Position numbers and translations under genes: made by a program. From Pseudaquidulcibacter saccharophilus (GTDB taxonomy: Bacteria; Pseudomonadota; Alphaproteobacteria; Caulobacterales; Aquidulcibacteraceae), in assembly GCF_019455445.1 (NCBI RefSeq), contig NZ_JAHWUS010000001.1:372001-436000 (forward strand): 64,000 nucleotides of DNA, in the 5' to 3' direction. Below are positions 19,364-20,287 of this stretch, piece by piece. The notes beneath the pieces were generated by a model. That model ran no database searches. It was not told the DNA's origin and was given only the letters and a program-made list of their open reading frames with translations. Every line of letters starts with the position of its first letter. Position 1 is the stretch's first letter.

Positions 19364-19701
19364 TTTGTTCTCTTTTATTTTGCCGTGAATTTATTAATCT
19401 GCGCCGTTATAATTGTCATCAAGAAAAATGGGAAATAACATATTGGCGGCTTTATTTATCTCATTGTAGATATTATATTAAATTTGTCTGGTCGCACCAG
19501 ACTATGGCGATAAACGCGCATATAATAAGCAGGCTTATGGGTCAAATTTCCACCCTCCTCGCTTTGCTCGTCACTCAGAAATTTGGAAATTTGCGAAAAT
19601 AAAAACCCAAAAACGCGGTTTTAGGTTTTTATTTGCATTTTTGCTGCGAGATTTTCATTGTTGGCACTTTAATTCTTAAGCTTCCTTACTTATACTAATA
19701 C
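19364..19701. other. 338-bp intergenic region upstream of ssrA
   Basis: No gene seen. It holds the start region of the enoyl-CoA hydratase-like gene, a 51-bp exact partial copy of the tmRNA acceptor piece (19485-19535), a hairpin CAAATTTC/GAAATTTG (19543-19585), and a perfect 10-bp stem AATAAAAACC/GGTTTTTATT (19598-19633) that looks like a bidirectional terminator. Confidence 0.7.
19485..19535 (+). repeat. 51-bp exact duplicate of the 5' part of the tmRNA acceptor piece
   Basis: Identical to 19702-19752, including the perfect GTCTGGT-cgc-ACCAGAC hairpin and the strand that would pair in tmRNA helix P2. The T-arm and CCA end are missing here. Copy offset is 217 bases. Confidence 0.95.
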
Positions 19702-20119
19702 TGTCTGGTCGCACCAGACTATGGCGATAAACGCGCATATAATAAGCAGGCTGGACCGGGGTGCGATTCCCCGCGGCTCCACCATATATCTCAACTCGCC
19801 GCCTTCGGCACTTTGTGCCTCACTTAGCGAGTTGAGGAATAAGGACAGAATTTTTACGGAAGTAAATTCCGCAAAAATTACGGCATTTATGCTTGTTCTT
19901 ATTTTGTTATGGGGCCGATATAGGATCGACAGATGTCTAAAAATGTTGCTTTTGCCCGCATGGGTTACGTTAAAAACCCGTTTTTACAAATGCAAACGAT
20001 AATTTTGCACAGGATTATGCTTTGGCTGCGTAAGCAGTTACGGTTAAATCCGACTAAGTCCTGACACTACGCGTCTCAGGCGGGGTTTGGCAGTTTTCCT
20101 GGCAACAGAAAAAACTGCC
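19702..20119 (+). ncRNA. ssrA: Circularly permuted two-piece tmRNA
   Basis: Acceptor piece: about 19702-19784, with T-stem CGGGG/CCCCG, 7-base T-loop, and CGGCTCCACCA ending at 19784. Spacer: 19785-19910, with a perfect hairpin CTCAACTCGC/GCGAGTTGAG (19790-19836), removed in maturation. Coding piece: from 19911, GGGGCCG pairs with CGGCTCC of the acceptor piece and keeps the G3-U pair needed by alanyl-tRNA synthetase; GGATCGACAG is the conserved tmRNA segment after it. The tag frame 19992-20033 encodes ANDNFAQDYALAA followed by TAA, to which the charged alanine is added in front. A hairpin GGCAGTTTT/AAAACTGCC (20089-20119) marks the 3' end or terminator. Piece ends are approximate. Together with SmpB (not in this window) it rescues stalled ribosomes. 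Confidence 0.95.
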
Positions 20120-20287
20120 TCTTCATTTATCGTTTTCCCGTTTCCGTTTTTTACGGAAAACCTTTTCACACTTTTCCTAACTTGTCGCGATAATTGACTT
20201 GAAGTAGGTTATTTTCAGTAATTTACGAGCCGTATTTTTTCATCATTTGTTAAATTGTAAAAATCGATAAATTTACTCTTGCAAAAT

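Follow-up and report, generated by a model that had tools for sequence, protein, structure and literature searches.

The tmRNA gene of Pseudaquidulcibacter saccharophilus is preceded by a truncated second copy of its acceptor piece, which we regard, with a probability of about two in three, as the relic of an old partial duplication of the permuted tmRNA acceptor gene, carrying a 3'-end element of its own. The gene lies in a window of 64,000 nucleotides (the whole stretch of DNA analysed, from contig NZ_JAHWUS010000001.1). The element behind the truncated copy is a previously uncatalogued structured repeat that occurs at gene ends throughout one genus, and its strong covariation, tight position rule and whole-arm turnover between close species make this family matter more than the half-acceptor itself.

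The covariance-model scan proposed in an earlier, sequence-only reading of the locus placed a complete permuted tmRNA at 19664-20119 (Rfam alpha_tmRNA, RF01849; 212.7 bits, model positions 1-355, above the gathering cut-off), and RF04321 also matched this gene. ARAGORN reported neither a tmRNA nor a tRNA in the window, though the Rfam model matches the gene end to end; the 125-nt spacer between the acceptor and coding pieces may be the cause of this miss. A second alpha_tmRNA match in the same genome (C4:76247) scored 19.8 bits, below the cut-off. The upstream unit gave no RF01849 match, only the downstream true gene scoring. The latter is thus a full member of the permuted alpha_tmRNA class, whereas the upstream unit shares with it only the first 51 nt and the -10 box, and has no T-arm, acceptor strand, CCA or coding piece.

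Sequence self-comparison bore out the exact 51-bp copy described by the sequence-only reading (19485-19535 against 19702-19752, with a spacing of 217 bp) and widened it to 63 bp at 94% identity between 19473-19535 and 19690-19752. The copy starts with the -10 box of the acceptor gene and continues as far as helix P2 reaches. Beyond the -10 box the two promoters show no significant homology (P 0.08), which leaves it uncertain how far the duplication extended. At its 3' end the half-acceptor reads GCAGGCT and stops just before the last P2 pair, and the final 32 nt of the acceptor piece (GGACC...CCACCA in the true gene), which comprise the T-arm, acceptor strand and CCA, are missing behind it; the lack of T-arm and CCA had been claimed correctly. 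The element begins 4 nt past this truncation point (TATG) and also 4 nt past the true CCA (TATA). These equal gaps support the earlier proposal that the acceptor was duplicated in tandem together with its 3' flank, and that the copy then lost its tRNA-like part. We found no report of half-acceptor duplicates in the open-access literature. The features of the locus are collected in the table.

Table. Features of the tmRNA locus (positions in the window)
Feature	Position	Strand	Remarks
Left promoter-like site	19450..19479	+	CTTTAT, 18 nt, TATATT; resembles relatives' tmRNA promoters
Half-acceptor	19485..19535	+	First 51 nt of tmRNA acceptor piece, exact; holds the 5' stem-loop and nearly the whole P2 strand
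TATG	19536..19539	+	Counterpart of TATA behind the true acceptor's CCA; same 4-nt gap to element
Element copy 1	19540..19643	+	102 bits with model R1, whose training alignment A2 includes this copy
Hairpin A of element copy 1	19543..19585	+	Arms CAAATTTC/GAAATTTG at 19543-19550/19578-19585
Hairpin B of element copy 1	19597..19634	+	'Terminator' of the sequence-only reading; stem 89% complementary
True tmRNA promoter	19667..19696	+	CTTTAA, 18 nt, TATACT; inside the alpha_tmRNA match
True tmRNA acceptor piece, to CCA	19702..19784	+	Rfam match; 19753-19784 are the 32 nt absent upstream
Element copy 2, filling the tmRNA spacer	19789..19891	+	59.9 bits with R1, outside the training set
tmRNA coding piece	19910..20119	+	Rfam match; tag ANDNFAQDYALAA, read by eye

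Comparison with related genomes, which had also been proposed, found the same upstream unit between the same flanking genes in Hyphomonadaceae bacterium UBA1933, a member of the same genus, with sequence differences of its own. The upstream unit is therefore neither an assembly error nor recent, and arose no later than the divergence from UBA1933. The refutation envisaged by the sequence-only reading, which called for no copy in any relative, thus does not apply. A second acceptor segment occurred in only these two species among 30 tmRNA loci from the own and related genomes, and was absent from the tmRNA loci of the three other species of the genus. The two genomes differ at 340 of 1061 4-fold degenerate sites (32%). 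Against this background the true acceptor shows no difference in 83 positions, the coding piece 6 in 208 and the true promoter region (19659-19701) 5 in 43, while upstream hairpins A and B differ at 1 of 45 and 5 of 40 positions, respectively. The half-acceptor carries 5 differences in 51 positions, all in the P2 segment; its 5' stem-loop carries none in 19. Since the true acceptor has remained unchanged, these five changes argue that the half-acceptor of UBA1933 is under no tmRNA-type constraint. A point against the relic is the complete identity of the half-acceptor of P. saccharophilus with its own true acceptor (51/51), despite 32% divergence at 4-fold sites, which must be due to purifying selection or to gene conversion by the true gene. 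Conversion by the neighbour accounts for the low divergence of the half-acceptor equally well as selection, and we have therefore rejected this low divergence as proof of function. In UBA1933 the spacer of the true tmRNA gene (L020) holds no more than a remnant of it (CAAATGCCACCTTCGGCAC, from the element), and the copy behind the half-acceptor is intact.

The element is about 105 bp long, and an alignment of 22 copies (A2) folds into two successive hairpins. Over these copies 17 of 23 pairs had changes on both sides (7 of 8 in hairpin A, 10 of 15 in hairpin B), and 95.6% of the cells of the alignment pair. This covariation score was reached by none of 500 shuffles, and the signal collapsed when pairing partners were slid by one column. 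The likeness that had been noticed between the upstream hairpin and the hairpin of the tmRNA spacer is real, as the covariance model R1, built from A2 with the spacer copy (19789-19891) left out, finds that copy, and the compared loop texts, CGCTTTGCTCGTCACTCA and CACTTTGTGCCTCACTTA, are the conserved interior of the element family. BLAST of the region against the genus, however, gave numerous partial hits, and the upstream hairpin matched other dispersed copies better than the spacer copy. It is a member of a family found throughout the genus, and no private copy of the spacer hairpin. For the same reason the stretch 19536-19630, which had been thought unique to the upstream unit, is part of a repeat dispersed over the whole genome.

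Raw element matches in the five genomes of the genus numbered 39 in P. saccharophilus, 34 in UBA1933 and 37, 69 and 65 in the others, counts in which the same palindromes also appear as weaker matches on the reverse strand. In the own genome a looser threshold gave 44 matches, of which about 30 forward copies remained after removal of the reverse-strand ones. Of 249 genomes sampled from 49 genera of the order, five contained the element, all of them from one genus; it was found in none of 55 other genomes of the family and none of 244 other genomes of the order. No Rfam family reached its gathering score with the window copies or at five other loci, and we found no report of the element in the open-access literature.

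The position of the element follows a strict rule. A same-strand gene was the nearest upstream feature in 51 of 54 copies, and in 41 of these 51 the stop codon or tRNA 3' end lay within 10 nt of the element. The three exceptions are the copies at tmRNA loci, which stand 4 nt behind the CCA or behind the truncated end. The element is thus found on mRNA, tRNA and tmRNA genes, usually 0-10 nt behind the stop codon or CCA. At sites shared between species the flanking gene and the terminator are conserved, and the arms of the element, though replaced wholesale, stay complementary; at C6:393124, for instance, CAACTTG/CAAGTTG in P. saccharophilus stands against CAAGTCG/CGACTTG in UBA1933 before the same terminator. 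This turnover of arms between conserved flanks points to a swapping of one element for another in the same slot behind the gene. In relatives some of the sites lack the element, and some carry unrelated palindromic repeats in its place, which suggests that several repeat families have gene 3' ends as common hot spots. Among orthologous gene ends of four genus-mates (L143-L171) the slots held the element, nothing, or unrelated palindromes such as TGTCATCCCGCACTTG...GGGGTGACAG in L153.

Like an intrinsic terminator, the element places a stem near the gene 3' end, but hairpin B has no free T-tract behind it, and in 18 of 38 protein-gene copies a separate canonical intrinsic terminator starts a few nt past the element, which therefore often occupies the gap between stop codon and terminator. 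The 'perfect' terminator-like stem formerly assigned to 19598-19633 exists as a long stem, but it falls short of perfection (table), and a terminator scan did not score it as an intrinsic terminator, its T-rich stretch being one of the arms of the stem.

Other dispersed repeats resemble the element in part. RIME, Bru-RS and the Caulobacter CIR are alphaproteobacterial intergenic repeats of about 100 bp with two inverted repeats. The element is similar to them in size, intergenic place and the possession of two palindromes, but among the genomes of the family and order that were scanned it is confined to a single genus. REP elements, with GTAG or CGTC tags, lie mostly less than 20 bp behind ORF 3' ends and are plausibly transcribed (PMC3733652). 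They share with the element the character of small dispersed palindromes in many copies close behind ORF 3' ends. Unlike them, the element consists of two successive hairpins over ~105 bp, with arms that vary with compensation, has a fixed orientation to the upstream gene, and follows tRNA and tmRNA genes as well as ORFs; inspection by eye showed neither GTAG nor CGTC as a conserved tag at the foot of its stem. Furthermore, a RAYT-class Y1 transposase (PF01797) was found in none of the five genomes of the genus, while controls such as E. coli and Caulobacter matched. The family raises the questions of what, in the absence of a RAYT-type transposase, directs the element to gene ends, and of how a structured stretch behind the stop codon affects termination, ribosome rescue and 3'-end stability.

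For the upstream unit, whose duplication, age and truncation are shown by the comparisons above, we infer the following order of events. The acceptor gene and the two-hairpin element in its 3' flank would have been duplicated in tandem in the common ancestor with UBA1933, and the upstream copy would then have lost the 32 nt that carry T-arm, acceptor strand and CCA. Behind the half-acceptor, the hairpins are one member of the genus-specific dispersed gene-end element, which probably works as an RNA structure at 3' ends and presumably spreads, or is exchanged, between gene-end slots. Such exchange is needed in this account, because a simple tandem duplication does not predict that the upstream element should be nearer to other copies than to the spacer copy; exchange in place is seen elsewhere. 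If the left promoter is used in this species, its transcripts would probably read through to form a leader of the tmRNA precursor or remain at a low level, and a relic would need no dedicated decoy function. The truncated acceptor offers a rare view of a permuted tmRNA gene duplicating and decaying.

Several other explanations of the upstream unit deserve consideration. The exact identity of 51 bp within 217 bp might arouse suspicion of an assembly artefact, which we reject as practically inconceivable, the same unit being present with its own sequence differences in the independent assembly of UBA1933. The 51-bp repeats could also be attachment sites, or a target duplication, around a 166-bp insert, as tmRNA genes are frequent integration sites (PMC11915505) and the direct repeats enclose a segment that holds a dispersed element. 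This we consider highly improbable and have rejected. The repeat covers the -10 box and the promoter-proximal 5' half, and not the 3' end of the gene, which does not suit an attachment site; at other loci, where the element lies 0-10 nt behind the gene, the flanks inspected showed no duplication of this kind; and the gap between copy end and element equals that between CCA and element. The half-acceptor might instead be transcribed as a decoy or sponge RNA that binds the coding piece in trans by way of P2 and blocks the assembly of functional tmRNA. RNAcofold gave similar energies for all versions of half-acceptor and coding piece and missed the established P2 register, so pairs were counted in the Rfam register. 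Over the 17 positions of this register the true acceptor forms 16 standard P2 pairs with the coding piece (16/17), 15 of which can form with the half-acceptor of this species (15/17) and, despite five changes, 14 with that of UBA1933, where one A-U has become G-U and one G-U has been lost. The pairing capacity claimed by the sequence-only reading is thus possible by pair count, and the unchanged 5' stem-loop and the promoter-like site in this species are in keeping with a decoy. However, with no more than five changes the survival of the pairs carries no significance (0.2 by a rough estimate by hand). Furthermore, the true acceptor and the coding piece pair in cis within one precursor, to which the true acceptor adds the acceptor stem, so that a half-acceptor pairing in trans would be expected to lose. 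In addition, the left -35 is not conserved in UBA1933, the half-acceptor is present in only two species, and, with no terminator at 19598-19633, a discrete decoy RNA is not predicted. A decoy function of the half-acceptor is thus unsupported, and we judge it improbable. We give very little credence to a broader proposal, in which the element is exchanged between stop/CCA-terminator slots of dozens of genes with its fold kept, and one member would have made the truncated acceptor copy a small RNA unit tuning trans-translation.

A further, unlikely alternative is that of tandem promoters, in which the left promoter would yield a longer tmRNA precursor whose leader contains the half-acceptor and the element, and the half-acceptor may compete in cis with the true acceptor and so modulate maturation. 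The two units lie on the same strand, the scan found no intrinsic terminator between them, and the left site resembles the tmRNA promoters of relatives. It scored 9.4 with a position weight matrix (PWM) trained with members of the genus included (99th percentile of random 75-mers, 7.4), but only 2.2 with training outside the genus, a value reached by 5% of random 75-mers, and the true tmRNA promoter itself scored only -2.5 with this second matrix. Since the scores shift with the choice of training set, no firm measure of promoter strength is drawn from them; the site may still be active in this species. In UBA1933 the -10 region has no substitutions and one gap, but 8 of 33 positions differ in the -35 region and the -35 box has been lost, and three relatives in the genus manage without the left unit, which speaks against a regulatory leader. 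We therefore retain the relic of a duplicated acceptor gene as the best explanation.

A second dispersed repeat, ACGGAAAA(N)CTTTTCCTA(N)TCGC, lies at about 20151-20190 of the window, just past the tmRNA coding piece, and occurs also at L127, L128, L129 and L148. At L148 a stretch related to this repeat sits inside a copy of the two-hairpin element.
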